Below are positions 46,189 through 54,185 of a DNA stretch of 64,000 nucleotides, piece by piece. The position numbers and the translations under genes were made by a program. Source of the DNA: Pyropia yezoensis. Taxonomy: Eukaryota > Rhodophyta > Bangiophyceae > Bangiales > Bangiaceae. The stretch lies in NCBI GenBank assembly GCA_009829735.1, contig CM020620.1, positions 23,658,020-23,722,019 on the forward strand. Reading direction: 5' to 3'. The notes under the pieces are model-generated. The model made no database searches and was not told the origin of the DNA. It worked only from the letters and a program-made list of their open reading frames with translations. Positions within the stretch are counted from its first letter, which is position 1. Each line of letters begins with the position of its first letter.

Positions 46189-46598
46189 TGTGGTGGATAG
46201 GGGGAGGCAGAAGAGGGAGGGAGAGAGCGAGTGGGGGGGCACTGCTCCTGCCTGCGTGTCCTTCCACCTTGGTCGAGGCGTGTTGCTCGCCAGAGAAGTG
46301 ACAGCTCTTGGCCGCAGTCCCATCGGAAAGAATCCGTTTTCATTGAAGAAAGACAAAAGGTCGCTGCCCACAACGCTTCATAGATAGCAGGGGTTGTCAA
46401 GCGTATCTGGCTCAAGCGTATACGCGCGTATTTTTCAACCCTACTGACGGTACTCGTGCCATTTTCGCTCAGCATTCCGAATACTCACTTGCTTTGCGAG
46501 CGTGCATCCACCATACACTTGCATGGAAATCACACGAGTATTGGCGGCCAGTACTCATGGGATCTTTTCTCGGCCAGTGACACGCGGAGTTCGAAATC

Positions 46599-47520
46599 TC
46601 TCTCCCTTTTCCCCCTAGACAAGCACGGTATTGCTGTTCTCCCAATTTTGGCCGATCCGGACAAGAACAACACTGCATGAACAACTGTGTGAGCCAATCG
46701 CGTGCTGGCAGGTGAGGGCGAGCCAATCGCGTGCTCTAGGAGCCCGATCGCCCAGAGCAGATGATTGGCTGCAGCCACAGTGGGCCTCTTACCAATCGCT
46801 GATTGGTCGAAACACTGTTGTTCTCCCGGCTGAGATCGCCGAAGATTCCCCCCACATCGGCTCGTTCCTCTCCGGAACAGTTGTCCAGCTTGTCTTGGTG
46901 TCTGTTCCACTCAGGTTCTCCCCTCCATGTGCTCGGAGTCCCGGGAAAGTCGCAGATCTTACTGTTTGCACAACAATGGAGGCTGATTCGGAGCTCTCAT
47001 TGGTCAGAGATGCATCCTGTGGGGCATGTCATTGGTCAGTGGACTGTTGTTCTTGTTCTTGTCCGGATCGGCCAAAATTGGGAAAACTGCAATAACTGGG
47101 CACTTACCGGCTCGGGGGATTTGCGGATCCGATTTGGCTGGCGGGTGATGCGAGCCAAGCGGTGGCGGGCGCCGGCTCGAGCCGTTTTGCCCCGCACCCG
47201 CGGGTGGCCTGGCGGCGACGGCAGTGCCCCCTGGCTGCCTTGGCGGGAGCCGCGGCGGGGGTGCCTGCGCGCCGCTGCAGGCGGCACCGGCGGCTCCGGC
47301 CGCCCGCGCCCCCGGCTGCCGCGGCCCGGTCCCGCTGGCGCTGCTTCTGACCGCCGGCGCCCGCGGCCGTTTTGTTTGTGGCGGGGTCTTCGGCTGCGCC
47401 CCTAGAGGGTCGCACGCCGCTCCCGCGCCCCACCGGCCGCCGGGCGTGCCTTCTTGAGGGCCGCCCCGCGAGCCGAGGCCGTCCCACTGCGGGCGGCAGC
47501 GCCCTTTGGCTTGCCCCGCG
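46599..47520 (+). repeat. Left split direct repeat A1 of the DIRS-type element (MITE-interrupted)
   Basis: Matches 52178-52635 over its full 458 bp after removing 46631-47092 and one TA. It starts TCTCTCCCTTTTCCCC and ends TTGGCTTGCCCCGCG. Confidence 0.9.
46631..47092. mobile_element. 462-bp MITE, TA target duplication, 40-bp inverted ends
   Basis: The left end (46631-46670) starts TTGCTGTTCTCCCAATTTTG. The right end (47053-47092), inverted, starts TTGCAGTTTTCCCAATTTTG; the two 40-bp ends differ at only two positions. TA flanks both sides (46629-46630 and 47093-47094). The uninterrupted sequence exists in repeat A2 at 52201-52216, so insertion and target duplication are proven within the window. 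TA duplication points to Tc1/mariner-type mobilisation. The body has no coding capacity and carries seven CCAAT/ATTGG motifs, including GAGCCAATCGCGTGCT at 46691 and again at 46720. Confidence 0.92.
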
Positions 47521-47944
47521 TACGGGGCAAGCCGAAGTTTACCCGTGCTTGGCACGTGGTCTGCGCGGACTGCGCGTCGATTGACGTGAGCATGACTGAT
47601 ACTGAGGCGGTGGTCGCTACCGCGGCGGCGCGCCCTTGGGAGGCCGGCCTGTCCGAGTTGAGGGCGGTGTGGAATATGTGTTACCCAATAAAAGGATATG
47701 GGACCGACCGGCGCCCGGAAGGCAAAGAGGGAGCTATTACCGTAAAGGCAAAGAAGACAGACCTTTAGCTCCAGGACGTTCGATGGGGAGCAAGCCGGCC
47801 GAACGGCAGCGGCGAGCCCCCACGTCGCCTATACCGGGCGAAACAATTATGCCGGTCGAGCGACCGAGCGAAGGCCGGACGGCCGATCGCTACGAGCATA
47901 GCAAACAATATAAAAGATCCCTCCAAAGCAAGGACAGATAAACA

Positions 47945-49071
47945 ATGCAAAACAAAAGTAGTCCCCCAAAGGGCGAGCCACAAGCGGACCCAGACCAACA
48001 AGGCTGGGACCACCAGTCAAGGGGGCTACTTGCCCGTAAATACCGGAAATCGGTACGGTGGGCGGATATGCTGCAGGCGGAGCTGCAGGCGCTAGCCCAA
48101 GCGATTGCGGCCAGCAAAGTCCGTGCGGCGGAGCAGGAGGCGGCAAGATCGTCGACTCCCGAGCTGAGACCGGGGCGCACGCGACTGGAGGTGATGCGGC
48201 TGCGGACGCAGACGGCGCGGCTGCTGGAGCTACGACCGCCACCGGCACCGACGCCACCATCCCCACGGTCCACCCCATCTCTCCCGCTACCGGGGGGGGG
48301 AGCGAGAAGGACTCCCTCCTCTACGACGGCGACGGATCGGACAGCGACGGGCTACATTACGCCGGTCAGGGGGTCGGCTCCAAGCCAAGCAAGGGGGAGC
48401 CCGGCGAGCACCCGGATGGCATGGACAACCCGGGCCTGCCTGCCGCTGGCGACGTCATCACCAGCTTTAAGGTCCCCAAGCGCATCAGGCGAGCGGACGG
48501 TCTGCCCGTCCCCTGCAACCCGACCGACGTGGAGCACCTGGAGAATTTCCCCCGCGGTGACCAGGACCACGAAGAAGCTGGTGCGGTTTATGTTGCTTCC
48601 AGTGGAGCCCAGGACCTTGCCAATGCGGCCAGTGCCCTCTATCACAAGCGGGAGACCCTCTCCGCGGATGCTCTTGAGGCACGTCTCGCGTAGCTCGCAG
48701 TCGCAACGCGACTGCACTACCGCATTACGACGGCCCGCTATGACTACCTCACCGCCGCCAAGACCGACCCCGGGCTCGCCGAGCTCTACCTCGCCACGGA
48801 CGCCGTGCCGCGAAACAAGCGGCGCGGCCCCGACTATCAGCGCTTCCTCAACGCCGTTGCCGTTGACGAAGTGCGGGCCAGCGCCAAGCGGGCGGCCGAG
48901 ATTCGGGCTGGAACGTCTTCCCGGCGCAAGCGACGCGGCGGTGGGGGGGGCGGTGACAAGCCGCCTCCTGGCCCGGGCACTCAGCCTGGCCCAGGCGGAG
49001 GCGGCGTCAAGGCGGCTAAAAAAGCCGCATCAGCCGCCGCCGCAGCGGCCGCAGCCCAAGGCAAGAAGTAG
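47945..49071 (+). CDS. DIRS-element gag-like frame, disrupted
   Basis: Starts MQNKSSPPKGEPQAD, then a helical segment WADMLQAELQALAQAIAASK. At the 9-G run 48292-48300 the sensible frame shifts by one base and continues as SEKDSLLYDGDGSDSDG and ADGLPVPCNPTDVEHLENFP. An in-frame TAG at 48691-48693 interrupts it, after which YDYLTAAKTDPGLAELYLA and a basic Lys/Arg/Gly/Ala tail run to TAG 49071. No zinc knuckle is seen. Its position before the RT and its composition suggest a structural protein; homology could not be checked. Confidence 0.55.
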
Positions 49072-49211
49072 CCACCCCTTTCGGGGGGGCGTCGGCGGGC
49101 TTGGCCCAACCCACCGCACAACAAACGGGCCCGACGGGAGCAGGGGACACCCCCCCCTCTCCCGCCGTACGCGGCTGTACGCAAGGCCGTAACGGCGTGG
49201 CGCGCCCTCGG

Positions 49212-51087
49212 CGCCTCACGCTGGGTGATCAAGAACTTTCTCGACGGGGCGCAGATTCCGTGGTCTCGGCGGCCGGCCTTTCACCGGGCGCGGCGGTTCC
49301 CCGTGGCAGCGGCGGACGTAGAGTTTGCCGAGGCGGAGATGAGGCGCTGCGTGGAGAAGGGCCACTGAACCGAGCTGTTTGGGAAGGACAGGGAGCGCCC
49401 GCACGTGATAGTGAACGGGTTCGTGACCTGGTCGGCCGGCAAGCAGCGCTTCGTCATCGACTGCCGCCACCAGAACCGGTCGGAATTTATGGAGGAACGC
49501 CCGTTCAAGTACGAGGGGCTGTTGGACTTGGCGCAGCAGCTAAAACCAGGGGATCAGCTGATGGGATGGGACGTGAAGGATGCGTACCACCACGTCCCGT
49601 TGCGGGAGGCGGACAAGCCGCTCTTCTGCTTCCAGTGCCTCGGGCGCGTGTTGTAGTGCAACACGATGCCGTTTGGTCTGAAGGTCGCGCCGTTCCTGTG
49701 GACGAAGGTCTGCCGCCCGGTGGTGCAGCAGCTGCGCGCGGAGGGCTTCCGCATCGTCGTGTATGTCGACGACTTTTGGGGGGCGCCGCCGACGCAGGCG
49801 AACGGGCCGGCGACGACGACGGATGTTACCCGGGCGGCAGTTCGGGTGCGCGCCCTCCTCTCCGATCTGGGCCTCACCCTGCACCCAACCAAGGGCGAGA
49901 TGGAGGGGACGACGGCCCTCCCCATGCTCGGCTTTATCATGGACACGCAGCGGCAGCTGTTTCTGCTCCAACCGGGGCGCGCCAAGAAGGTCATGGGGTT
50001 GGCGGGCAGCCTGTTAGGTCACGCCAATTCCCACCGTCGCTGGGTGAGGTACTCCGCCCTTCGCAGCTTCTGCGGAACGGCGGTCTCCACTCACCTGGCC
50101 GTCCCGGACGCCCGCTTTCGCCTCCGCTCCCTTTACACGGCACTGAGGGACCACCACGACGTAGGCAGCCACCGCGTGCGGTTGGGGCGGCAGGCGGTGC
50201 AGGACCTGCAGTACTGGGCGGAGCTGACGCGGCACGCCAAGGCAGGGCGGGCCCTTTGGCCACGGCCGCCGGACGTCACCATGGAGACCGACGCCAGCAA
50301 CTCGGGGTGCGGGGCCACATGGGACGGGCTGGTACCCGCCCGCGGGTTCCACTCAACCGAGCGGAAGGCCCTCCACATCAACCTACTGGAGCTGGGCGCC
50401 GTCCGGCTCGGCTTGCTGTCGTTCGCGGACTTTCTGCGCCAACCCGATACGGTCGTGCGCCTCGAGGTGGATTCGCAAGTGGCGATGGGTGCGATCAACG
50501 CGATGAGCTCAGGGTCGGAGGCTGTTATGGCCGAGCTACGCCGGCTGCACAAGTTGTGCACCCACCTTGGTGTCACCCTCCGCGCAGAGTACCTCCCGAG
50601 CGCGCTCAATTTGTGGGCCGACCGGCTGTCACGTACGGCCGATTCGACCGACTGGTGCCTGACGCGCGCCGCCTTCCGCTCCCTCGACGACGTGTTTGGG
50701 CCCCACACCGTCGACCTCTTCGCGTCCGTGGAGAGTGCCAAGTGCGGCCGCTTTTACTCCAAGCTGCCGTCGCCGGGGGGGAGCGGCGTAGACGCCATGA
50801 ACCGCAGCTGGGCCAACGAGAACGCGTGGGCGAACCCGCCCTTCAACCTTGTTGGCCCGACGGTGGCCAAGATCGTACGGGACAAGGCCACCGTCACCCC
50901 CGTCACCCCGCGCTGGCGCGCTCAACCCTGGTGGCCGGTAGCCGTCGCGGCGTGCAGCGGCTACCGACTGCTTCCTCGGCGGCTAGGCGTCTACCCGCGC
51001 ACCACCCACCCGACCTCCAAGTCGCCAACGTGGCGGGCGGTGGTATTCCGTTTCGTGAACGGCGGCGCAACGCCATCCCCCGCCTAG
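49212..51087 (+). pseudogene. DIRS-element reverse transcriptase / RNase H / methylase-like polyprotein, disrupted
   Basis: In one frame: VTWSAGKQRFVIDCRHQN, then WDVKDAYHHVPL, MPFGLKVAPF and the catalytic VYVDDFW near 49760; RNase H with METDASNSGCGA, INLLELGAV, VDSQVAMGAINA and LNLWADRLSR; then a DIRS-type methylase-like region HTVDLFASVESAKC with WANPPFNLVG (NPPF motif). The frame is broken by TGA near 49366 and by TAG 49654-49656, just before MPFGL, where an intact RT has sense codons. From 49666 to the end it is open. Order RT-RNase H-methylase is the DIRS/PAT arrangement. Confidence 0.88.
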
Positions 51088-51089
51088 AG

Positions 51090-52070
51090 CGGTGGCACGC
51101 GGATGGACTTAGGGCCCGGCGCTTTGGCGTTGGAGAAGGTGCAGCTACGGCGCGCTTGCTGGTGAGGGCCAAGTACCAGCCCTCGACTCAGCGCAACTAC
51201 GTCAACGCGTGGGAGCGCTTCGTCAACTTTTGTGAACGGACGTGTGCGCGGGCGTTACCCGCGTCGCCGGAAACGGTGGTTTGCTACATGGCGTCGCTAT
51301 TCGAGTCTAAGACGTGCCAGCCGGATACGATTAACTCGTACCTAGCCGCCGTCCGCGCCGTTCACCGTTTGGCCGGCGAGCCGTCGCCAGCGGACGACGC
51401 GCTGGTCGCCGACGCCAAAGTCGGTTGCCGACGGCTGCACGTGCAAGTGGAGGGCGCTCTGCCAGCTGTGCGCGGCCCACTCCCGCCTGAGGCAGTGCTG
51501 CAGCTGGCCCACGTCGGTTTGGCCACCACCTCCCCTGACCTGCAACGCAAGTGTGCAGGCCTCGTGCTAGCCCTCCTCATGTTCAACCGCCCGGGAGCGG
51601 AGGCCAACACGCGCGCCATGGACCTCCGCCTATTGCATGGCGGCTTCCAGGCGCAGGTACCCGTGTACAAGATGGGGGTGCTGAAGCGGGGAGCGCGGCT
51701 GGCCTTCACCATCCCTGTGGCGGCTGGCGGGTGGCTCGCTGATCCGGCGCTGCGTCTGGTGCGGCGCGTGTGGCTGGCCCACTACCGTGCTGGCCGCCCG
51801 GCTGCAGCCCACCTGTTTGCGCCGCCCGGCGCCGCCGCGCTGCAGCCGCTGGCCACCCAGGTCGTCACGCGTTGGCTGGAGCACACCCTCCCGTTCACCA
51901 CGTGCGTCCCTCCGCTGGGCGTCAAGTGGACGGGCCACTCTCCGCGCGCGGGCGCCGCCTCTGCCGCTTTCGCCGTGGGATTATCCCCGGCGCTGATTAG
52001 GCAGTGCATGGGCTTGTCCTCCGTTGAGACGGCGCACAAGCATTACATCGACGCGCGCAGTGGTGCTTAA
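51090..52070 (+). CDS. DIRS-element tyrosine recombinase, intact catalytic residues
   Basis: This enzyme integrates the circular DNA intermediate in place of a DDE integrase. The N-terminal core-binding part has YQPSTQRNYVNAWERFVNFC. The catalytic part has the first Arg in FNRPGAEANTRAMDLRL, the HxxR box in GHSPRAGAASAA and the tyrosine in HKHYIDARSG, so the R-H-R-Y set is present. The frame overlaps the end of the RT frame in a different phase; there is no clear own ATG, so the start given is a domain boundary and frameshift expression is possible. It ends at TAA 52070, about 80 bp before repeat B1. Confidence 0.88.
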   Translation, partial: RWHADGLRARRFGVGEGAATARLLVRAKYQPSTQRNYVNAWERFVNFCERTCARALPASPETVVCYMASLFESKTCQPDTINSYLAAVRAVHRLAGEPSPADDALVADAKVGCRRLHVQVEGALPAVRGPLPPEAVLQLAHVGLATTSPDLQRKCAGLVLALLMFNRPGAEANTRAMDLRLLHGGFQAQVPVYKMGVLKRGARLAFTIPVAAGGWLADPALRLVRRVWLAHYRAGRPAAAHLFAPPGAAALQPLATQVVTRWLEHTLPFTTCVPPLGVKWTGHSPRAGAASAAFAVGLSPALIRQCMGLSSVETAHKHYIDARSGA

Positions 52071-52177
52071 CCCCGGCGGCACGGGCGCTGTTCTCGCGCT
52101 ACCTCCCGGTGCGGCTGTGACCCGCGCCGCGCGCCTCGGTCATCTCCCCCTGAATGGCAACCCGACCCCTCCAGCTA

Positions 52178-52635
52178 TCTCTCCCTTTTCCCCCTAGACA
52201 AGCACGGTAACTGGGCCCTTACCGGCTCGGGGGATTTGCGGATCCGATTTGGCTGGCGGGTGATGCAAGCCAAGCGGTGGCGGGCGACGGCTCGAGCCGT
52301 TTTGCCCCGCACCCGCGGGTGGCCTGGCGGCGACGGCAGTGCCCCCTGGCTGCCTTGGCGGGAGCCGCGGCGGGGGTGCCTGCGCGCCGCTGCAGGCGGC
52401 ACCGGCGGCTCCGGCCGCCCGCGTCCCCGGCTGCCGCGGCCCGGTCCCGCTGGCGCTGCTTCTGACCGCCGGCGCCCGCGGCCGTTTTGTTTGTGGCGGG
52501 GTCTTCGGCTGCGCCCCTAGAGGGTCGCACGCCGCTCCCGCGCCCCACCGGCCGCCGGGCGTGCCTTCTTGAGGGCCGCCCCGCGAGCCGAGGCCGTCCC
52601 ACTGCGGGCGGCAGCGCCCTTTGGCTTGCCCCGCG
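52178..52635 (+). repeat. Right split direct repeat A2 of the DIRS-type element
   Basis: Uninterrupted 458-bp copy of A1, and the reference for the empty MITE site. It is followed by ~137 bp of unique sequence and then B2 (52773-52796). Confidence 0.9.
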
Positions 52636-53418
52636 CCCCACTCCTCCCCGCGCTGGTGGCGCGCTTCCTTGTCGGGCGCCTTTGGCTTGTTTCTTGTGTT
52701 GGTTTTTTACCACTGCTTGATTTCTCTTTGAGCCTTTTACTTAGTTTTACTCGTGCGATAAAGTCTGCGTATATGGCAATCCGACCCCTCCAGCTATCAA
52801 GCGTAGCACTACCCTGTCGACTCAGATTCTGATGTGTTTTCGCTCCTCGAATCGACGCCTCCCAGGCGCACCCACCACAACTACCCTGGATACGTTGCCG
52901 AGGTCCCGCGGGCCCTCGGGGCGGTCCCCAGGGTGGGGCGGGTGAGGGGCTGACAAACTTCTTTGCAGCCTGCTGATGAGACGGAAGGTCAGGCGGTGCT
53001 CTCGGGCAAGCCGAAGCCAATGACATTCTCTCTTGCCAGCGCCCGTGCACCGCCTGGCTCTGGAATGTCCCCAGGAATCGTGACGACAGGCAGGCCTAGC
53101 GCAGGATCCCGTGCTCTCTTCGCTTGTCAAGCATACAGAAGGGCCATAAGAGAAGGGAATCCAGTCACGCGGAAACGTAAAGTGCAGTACATCTTCGTAA
53201 ATTGACCTGTCTTTCATGCGCTGAATACTCTTGCAGTACTCGTACTGTTGCCGAAATATACTACTGGATAGGATGCTGGTAAATACTGATGATTTTCGGT
53301 CACGGGCGCCACTACGCTTAGCGAGGAGTCGGCTGGCTGACAGTGGATACTCATGCACAAGCCACGTCTCCCAATACCATACGCTGGACCAAAACTGGTA
53401 CGCTTGACAACCCCTGCT

Positions 53419-54185
53419 AAATATTGTGCGTCCCGTAAAAAGTGGACGTGCACGGGTCGTGCAGTGTGGGTTTGATTGGTCCAGTGGCCGATATTTGACA
53501 TGATCACGACACGAGCAGTACGGGACGCACTATAGATAGTCTGCACCACACGATGGACACACACACAATGCCACGATTGCGTTCCCCCTGAGAAATCATA
53601 ACTGACGGTGCCACGTCATGAAACAAGTCAAAGGTGCGCCCAAATAGAGCATCAGCCAATGAGAGGCCGAGCTCGGCACAAGACCTCAAAAGGGGGGTCT
53701 TAACTAGGGGTGATCTACAAACTGGCGGTCGACGGGGGGGTGTCGCGGCCAGCACCGCCGCCTTCGCCGGGAGAGGGCCCCCTCGTGCTCATGAAGAGCG
53801 CGACAGGGACACTACCACCCTGCCATGTTGCCTCTCCACTTCCCTCCCCCCGCGCTGCCGCTTGCGTGGGCAGCGTGGGGGCACCGCCGCGGCGGTGGTC
53901 AAGAGCGCACGGCTACCGCCGTCGACGGCGGTGGTAGCGGTGGCGTTTGCGTCGCCGCCGCAGCCGCCGCCGCCGCCGCCGCCGCTGCCTGCTCACGGTG
54001 GGTCATGTGGCCACACTGGCGGGGCGGGCGCGCCGTAGAGGGGCCGCCGTGGTGAGACCACCCCCCCCGCCTCTACCCTCCCCCCCTCTCGCCTATCTCG
54101 TCGTCCCTGCCACCGTCCTGACCCCCCCCCCGCTCGTCTCCTCTGCGGGCGACTGTGGCGGACTCCCCCGCGCCGTGGGGCGTCC
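53419..54185. other. Intergenic, DeSI upstream region
   Basis: No gene. GTGCGTCCCGTA (53426-53437) and its exact inverse (53519-53530) form a 105-bp inverted-repeat unit abutting the outer element's right end. CCAAT motifs lie near 53485 (inverse) and 53652, plausible promoter sites for the DeSI gene. Confidence 0.5.

Follow-up and report, generated by a model that had tools for sequence, protein, structure and literature searches.

Insertions within insertions are common in repeat-rich genomes, and nested transposable elements with a readable order are familiar from maize. Among tyrosine-recombinase retroelements, the PAT group is marked by a methyltransferase together with split direct repeats in the order A1-B1-A2-B2, and its Toc3-like form of algae has no zinc finger in Gag and a recombinase that is not inverted, according to passages of the scheme in PMC4157794. 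The red alga Pyropia yezoensis has three chromosomes, 65% G + C, and 48% repeats, as given in part of PMC7423979. Here we analyzed a stretch of 64,000 nucleotides of this genome (GCA_009829735.1, contig CM020620.1; G000:C3:23658020-23722019), hereafter the window. Flanked by genes for SF3A2 (PF16835, 3e-27) and a PPPDE peptidase (PF05903, 8.7e-18), it holds a nest of transposable elements that was almost certainly built by five separate transposition events: an outer element best read as a non-autonomous hAT transposon, a PAT-type retroelement within it, a 462-bp miniature inverted-repeat transposable element (MITE) and a solo long terminal repeat (LTR) within the retroelement, and a small TA-flanked MITE at the right edge. 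The nest records five insertions in a red alga as a history that can be read. An earlier note on this DNA had described three nested elements; the nest itself was confirmed, and the solo LTR and the tiny MITE, both of which had escaped reading by eye, bring the insertions to five. No paper describing this nest was found in a literature search that covered passages of a few papers. Genome-wide searches covered 107.5 Mb in 11 contigs (C1, C2, and C3 of 43.6, 34.3, and 29.4 Mb), and their counts are lower bounds, since only the best candidates of each search were scored. The features of the nest, given as positions in the window, are as follows.

46380-46387, no strand: left hAT target-site duplication ATAGATAG, the 8 bp outside the terminal inverted repeat (TIR); 8-bp duplications occur at many other copies.
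46388-46598, plus strand: hAT left arm with an 18-bp TIR at 46388-46405; at least 40 genome matches, window included; TIR pair unique in the window.
46599-52796, plus strand: PAT-type retroelement with a tyrosine recombinase, measuring 6198 bp if the two inserts are counted and 5321 bp if not; bounded by the start of A1 and the end of B2, and supported by a sister element (L070) and by empty sites in solo hAT copies.
46599-46630, plus strand: first 32 bp of repeat A1, by alignment to A2.
46631-47092, plus strand: 462-bp MITE with TA at 46629-46630 and 47093-47094; TA on either side in 28 of the 30 copies read, the window copy among them.
47095-47520, plus strand: remaining 426 bp of repeat A1, by alignment to A2.
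47668-48075, minus strand: solo LTR (408 bp) from a Ty3/gypsy element of the chromodomain type, in reverse orientation, with GGCGG at 47663-47667 and 48076-48080; 40 scored places, a full element (L071), absent in sister L070.
48081-51087, plus strand: one frame that spans a presumed gag region, the reverse transcriptase, and the Dam-like methyltransferase; RVT_1 and PF05869 match pieces of this frame, and the gag pieces match no Pfam family.
51087-52070, plus strand: tyrosine recombinase in an open frame of another phase; PF13495 below cut-off; R168, R287, and Y320 kept.
52154-52177, plus strand: repeat B1, by match to B2.
52178-52635, plus strand: 458-bp repeat A2, in which 52208-52209 is the unoccupied MITE site, by alignment to A1.
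52773-52796, plus strand: repeat B2, one difference from B1.
52797-53416, plus strand: hAT right arm with the TIR at 53399-53416; at least 46 pieces matched genome-wide, counting the window.
53417-53421, no strand: probable first part of the right hAT duplication, CTAAA, then TA, then G at 53535; 6 of 8 letters agree with the left duplication when the small MITE is set aside.
53424-53532, plus strand: small TA-MITE, 109 bp, with TA at 53422-53423 and 53533-53534; 594 first-look candidates, 40 scored; 23 copies read.

The retroelement lies in the left arm of the hAT element, between ...GAAATC on the left and TCAAGCG... on the right. We searched the genome with the element ends for solo copies and empty sites, as the earlier note had proposed, and cut out 38 loci of the outer element, from which 27 distinct copies with a readable site were obtained after removal of the duplicates L018, L019, L029, L030, L032, and L036. 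All 27 lacked the retroelement. Three of them (L003, L004, and L028) carried the exact joined sequence GAAATCTCAAGCG, the other 24 having variants there, and the exact matches show that the PAT insertion neither duplicated nor lost target bases. Such an exact empty site provides a direct view of the integration of a tyrosine-recombinase retroelement: precise, with no duplication and no loss. The sister element L070 (5342 bp, 95.7% identical over its main block) begins at the A1 base at which the window element also begins, and its end reads ...CAGCTA; it lies in different flanking DNA. As for the 3' end, 14 of the 18 matches that reached query positions 642-645 stopped at 643, which corresponds to window position 52796; together with the exact match in the three solo copies, this led us to prefer 52796. 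A right end at 52798 with a 2-bp target loss was rejected; of the remaining four matches, three, the window among them, reached 645 and one stopped at 642. The internal junction of B1 and A2 reads CAGCTA^TCTCTCCC, the sequence that a B2-A1 circle junction would give, and the PAT element would thus have integrated into the hAT left arm as a circle, through its own tyrosine recombinase. Could the outer inverted repeat instead belong to a single composite transposon that moves with the retroelement as cargo? In favor of this, the retroelement is enclosed precisely by the two arms, and neither TIR is damaged; however, the 27 copies without retroelement and the foreign surroundings of L070 speak against it. 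On the solo hAT copies we rejected the composite transposon, which we regard as extremely improbable, in favor of a PAT insertion into a pre-existing hAT element.

The assignment of the retroelement rests on its domains and repeats. In a Pfam profile search on seven pieces of its frames (E 0.1), RVT_1 matched two pieces, 49369-49653 (0.0035, under the cut-off) and 49657-51084 (6.5e-7, at the cut-off), the Dam-like methyltransferase PF05869 matched at 1.1e-7, over the cut-off, and the recombinase N-terminal domain PF13495 matched at 1.7e-5; no integrase domain was found on these pieces. A reverse transcriptase, a methyltransferase, and a tyrosine recombinase (PF13495 just under cut-off) without an integrase characterize the DIRS order in its broad sense, and the label "DIRS-type" of the earlier note holds to that extent. 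The label fails for the narrower class, since split direct repeats are those of PAT and not the inverted repeats of Dirs1-like elements. Indeed, a Dirs1-like element, with two pairs of inverted repeats, was rejected because both the terminal and the internal repeats are direct. By the scheme of which passages are given in PMC4157794, the methyltransferase and the split direct repeats (A, 458 bp; B, 24 bp with one difference between B1 and B2) place the element in the PAT group. Neither a zinc finger on the seven pieces, in which the gag region is broken, nor an inverted recombinase was seen, the recombinase lying on the same strand as the rest of the element, and these two features may point to the Toc3-like algal form.

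Tyrosine recombinases follow an R-H-R-Y rule. We aligned the window protein with 16 of 31 related proteins (n = 17), one relative carrying a name, from Pyropia vietnamensis. R168 (in NRPG) and R287 were invariant, and Y320 was kept in at least 90%. Some observations weigh against the assignment: the histidine expected at 284, before R287, is present in the consensus but not among the columns kept in at least 90%, the PF13495 match scores 25.6 bits against a cut-off of 27, and neither RNase H nor a gag family was recognized on the seven pieces. The pol frame is interrupted by four in-frame stops (48691, 49069, 49366, and 49654) and, read from stop to stop, starts at 48040, inside the solo LTR, while the recombinase frame is open. 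The window copy of PAT is very likely dead.

Genome-wide, at least 122 recombinase matches to the window element were obtained (122 of 199 candidates scored), several of them within open frames 1300 to 1735 codons long, which indicates that this alga has a diverse group of such elements, part of it intact. At C1:28368919-28402645, eight recombinase matches about 4681 bp apart, two of them partial, form a head-to-tail PAT-type array; within the part read as L076, two adjacent units are 99.92% identical and each has a 1373-codon open frame. A constant spacing was also seen at C1:39063244-39079041 (4959 bp, four matches), and paired matches at C3:2365018/2369975, C2:32210195/32215880, and C3:12632004/12637528. 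An assembly artefact is possible behind these tandem arrays.

The TA-flanked MITE that the earlier note had placed in the left repeat proved to be a 462-bp element within A1, and its site is empty both in A2, inside the interval 52201-52216 given in that note, and in the two A repeats of sister L070. With the MITE and one TA set aside, A1 (46599-46630 and 47095-47520) and A2 (52178-52635) measure 458 bp each, as had been claimed, and differ at 4 positions (99.1% identity). The MITE end pattern was found at no fewer than 235 genome places and at 0 for the control. From 382 first-look candidates, 40 matches were scored, window included, and were nearly full length with 97-100% identity. The MITE inserted at a TA in the left repeat A1. 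A Tc1/mariner source is likely, as judged from locus L072, which has a DDE_3 transposase frame (433 aa, 9.9e-15) and a left 45 bp that is 93% alike to the MITE; as a point against this candidate transposase source, L072 has only one recognizable TIR, with no right TIR in the 3 kb read. A longer relative of the MITE, L075, has 829 bp with 362 extra middle bases.

The solo LTR sits between A1 and the reverse transcriptase, begins with TG, and ends with CA. Sister L070 lacks window positions 47663-48077. The LTR matched 40 scored places out of 233 candidates (window included) at 92-100% identity, and among the scored matches were nine same-strand pairs 7.8 to 12.0 kb apart. One of these pairs belongs to L071, a full 9.3-kb element flanked on either side by CTGGG. 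Its two LTRs, 408 bp long, both resemble the window LTR at 98.8%, and the minus strand of L071 encodes a reverse transcriptase (7e-39), an H2C2 integrase zinc domain (6.3e-14), and a chromodomain (3.8e-8), all over their cut-offs. A single LTR like those of this full element, flanked by a 5-bp duplication, identifies the insert as a solo LTR of a Ty3/gypsy chromovirus. Less favorable to this identification are the weak rve integrase core of L071 (9e-6; 26.3 bits, under the cut-off of 32.6) and the empty site of L070, which reads CACGG vs GGCGG in the window and thus differs in two letters. A chromodomain Ty3/gypsy element would have inserted upstream of the PAT pol region, separately from the MITE, and we infer that it then lost its interior by recombination between its LTRs.

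The outer element is bounded by the 18-bp TIR CAGGGGTTGTCAAGCGTA, present as a perfect pair at 46388-46405 (plus) and 53399-53416 (minus); with up to 3 mismatches allowed, these are the only two matches in the window, against 0.04 expected. The 20-bp inverted repeat at the ends of 46386-53418, reported in the earlier note, is literally there, but it overshoots the element by 2 bp at either end, since the C/G of CAGGGG...CCCCTG is where other copies terminate. The TIR plus four bases, with up to 3 mismatches, occurred at 107 or more genome places vs 0 for the reversed control pattern, and the copy numbers of this TIR and of the 462-bp MITE ends rule out chance. The left and right arms, for which 40 of 55 and 40 of 76 candidates were scored, both recur in dozens of copies genome-wide. 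The same note had named absence of the outer inverted repeat from other loci, or its flanking of unrelated single-copy DNA, as grounds against the outer element; this check was run and did not refute it.

To count duplications, we dropped L018, L019, L029, L030, L032, and L036 as the same copies as L004, L006, L007, L005, L003, and L002, respectively, and also set aside the window copy (L001, L009) and copies in which the two ends were not both present, which left 21 distinct copies. Sixteen of these were 757-866 bp long and five 989-1731 bp; the window element has 831 bp without the retroelement. The 8-bp duplication matched in all eight letters in 10 copies, in at least seven in 13, in six in 4, and in two or three in 4, and when ends were swapped between copies 0.2% reached seven of eight and 4% reached six or more. 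These 8-bp duplications are a hAT signature. Furthermore, a relative at C2:21708038-21716202, of which only the ends were read, has an identical left TIR, a right TIR with 2 mismatches in 18, an exact ATATGTAC duplication on both sides, and the hAT dimerization domain PF05699 between its TIRs, so that the window element shares its TIR with a hAT-domain-bearing relative. Among the TIR places listed, eight end in TACTTT, and six of the eight lie about 7.5 kb from a PF05699 match. The outer element is best read as a non-autonomous hAT, which a hAT transposase recognizing CAGGGGTTGTCAAGCGTA may have moved in trans, with an 8-bp duplication on insertion. Tempering this reading, the duplication of the window copy is imperfect, with 6 of 8 letters at best, and in four of the 21 other copies no more than 2 or 3 letters agree.

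The small TA-MITE starts 7 bp outside the hAT right end. Copies of its family that were read are 118-119 bp long vs 109 bp in the window, and TA was found on both sides in 21 of 23 copies (20 stretches), the exceptions being L086 and one copy in L095. Read as it stands, the hAT duplication matches in 5 of 8 letters (ATAGATAG vs CTAAATAT); once the small MITE and one TA are removed, 6 of 8 agree (ATAGATAG vs CTAAATAG). It is likely, though not certain, that the small MITE landed in the right hAT duplication after the hAT insertion. The opposite order, in which the repeat at 53422-53534 was already present and the hAT element inserted beside it, is unlikely but has some points in its favor: small TA-MITEs tend to lie close together and near further repeats (L079, L086, and L095), and the duplication is inexact either way. 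However, 6 of 8 after removal is the value seen in 4 of the 21 other hAT copies, and 4% of swapped pairs reach six or more. We thus favor an insertion of the small MITE sometime after the hAT element, probably into its right target duplication. The clusters comprise three small TA-MITEs in a row in L079 and two in L095, and in L086 one directly adjoins a sequence resembling an end of the 462-bp MITE.

Assembly can misjoin such repeats, and the nest was judged from the assembled sequence; the nest as a whole might be an artefact that joins separate repeats. However, the inner junctions bear the expected signatures, namely, 2-bp and 5-bp duplications and a precise recombinase junction, and the lengths of A1 and A2 agree to the base. 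The outer duplication is imperfect. We consider an artefactual nest hardly credible and take the five insertions as real.

The nesting places the hAT insertion before PAT, and PAT before both the 462-bp MITE and the LTR. Because the latter two lie side by side in one PAT element, the sequence gives no order between them; for the small MITE, the only order available is a probable one, after the hAT element. The succession of outer element, retroelement, and MITE proposed in the earlier note is supported by the empty sites in the solo hAT copies, in A2, and in sister L070. Divergence agrees with the nesting: the arms of other hAT copies are at most 93% (left) and 89% (right, full length) identical to the window copy, copies of the 462-bp MITE and the LTR reach up to 98.5% and 99%, respectively, and A1 and A2 are 99.1% identical.

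A comparison of A1 and A2 for age had also been suggested and was made. When polarized with sister L070, all four differences of the window fell on A2, and seven of the eight A-repeat differences of L070 fell on its A2 and one on A1. At three further sites both window repeats differ from both L070 repeats, a pattern that would follow if every round of copying rendered A1 and A2 alike. The imbalance of 11 vs 1 (two-sided binomial, 0.006; 0.125 for 4 vs 0 alone and 0.07 for 7 vs 1 alone) is a post-hoc count from two elements only, and it calls for caution in taking A1 and A2 for a simple clock. Changes since the last copying might fall almost only on A2, with A1 and A2 laid down or maintained differently in the life cycle of the element; we consider this unlikely. 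If true, the two repeats would be unequal, for instance, through lower copying fidelity at the internal repeat.

Each part of the nest falls in a known superfamily, and what is known of these superfamilies is unchanged. Compared with the Toc3-like PAT form, as far as it is described in passages of PMC4157794, the window retroelement has very short B repeats (24 bp), no RNase H recognized by Pfam, and a broken frame. The outer element agrees with non-autonomous members of the hAT superfamily in its CAGGGG-type TIRs, its 8-bp duplications, and a relative with near-identical TIRs and PF05699, with no notable difference. Likewise, the solo LTR matches those of chromodomain Ty3/gypsy elements in its TG...CA ends, its 5-bp duplication, and an LTR shared with an element encoding reverse transcriptase, H2C2, and chromodomain, again with no notable difference. 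The 462-bp MITE resembles Tc1/mariner-type MITEs in its TA duplication, its TIRs, and a left 45 bp 93% alike to a DDE_3 locus, and differs in that the possible source L072 has one TIR only. Taken together, the nest shares with those of maize the insertion of element into element and an order that can be read, but it lies in a red alga and includes a recombinase retroelement.

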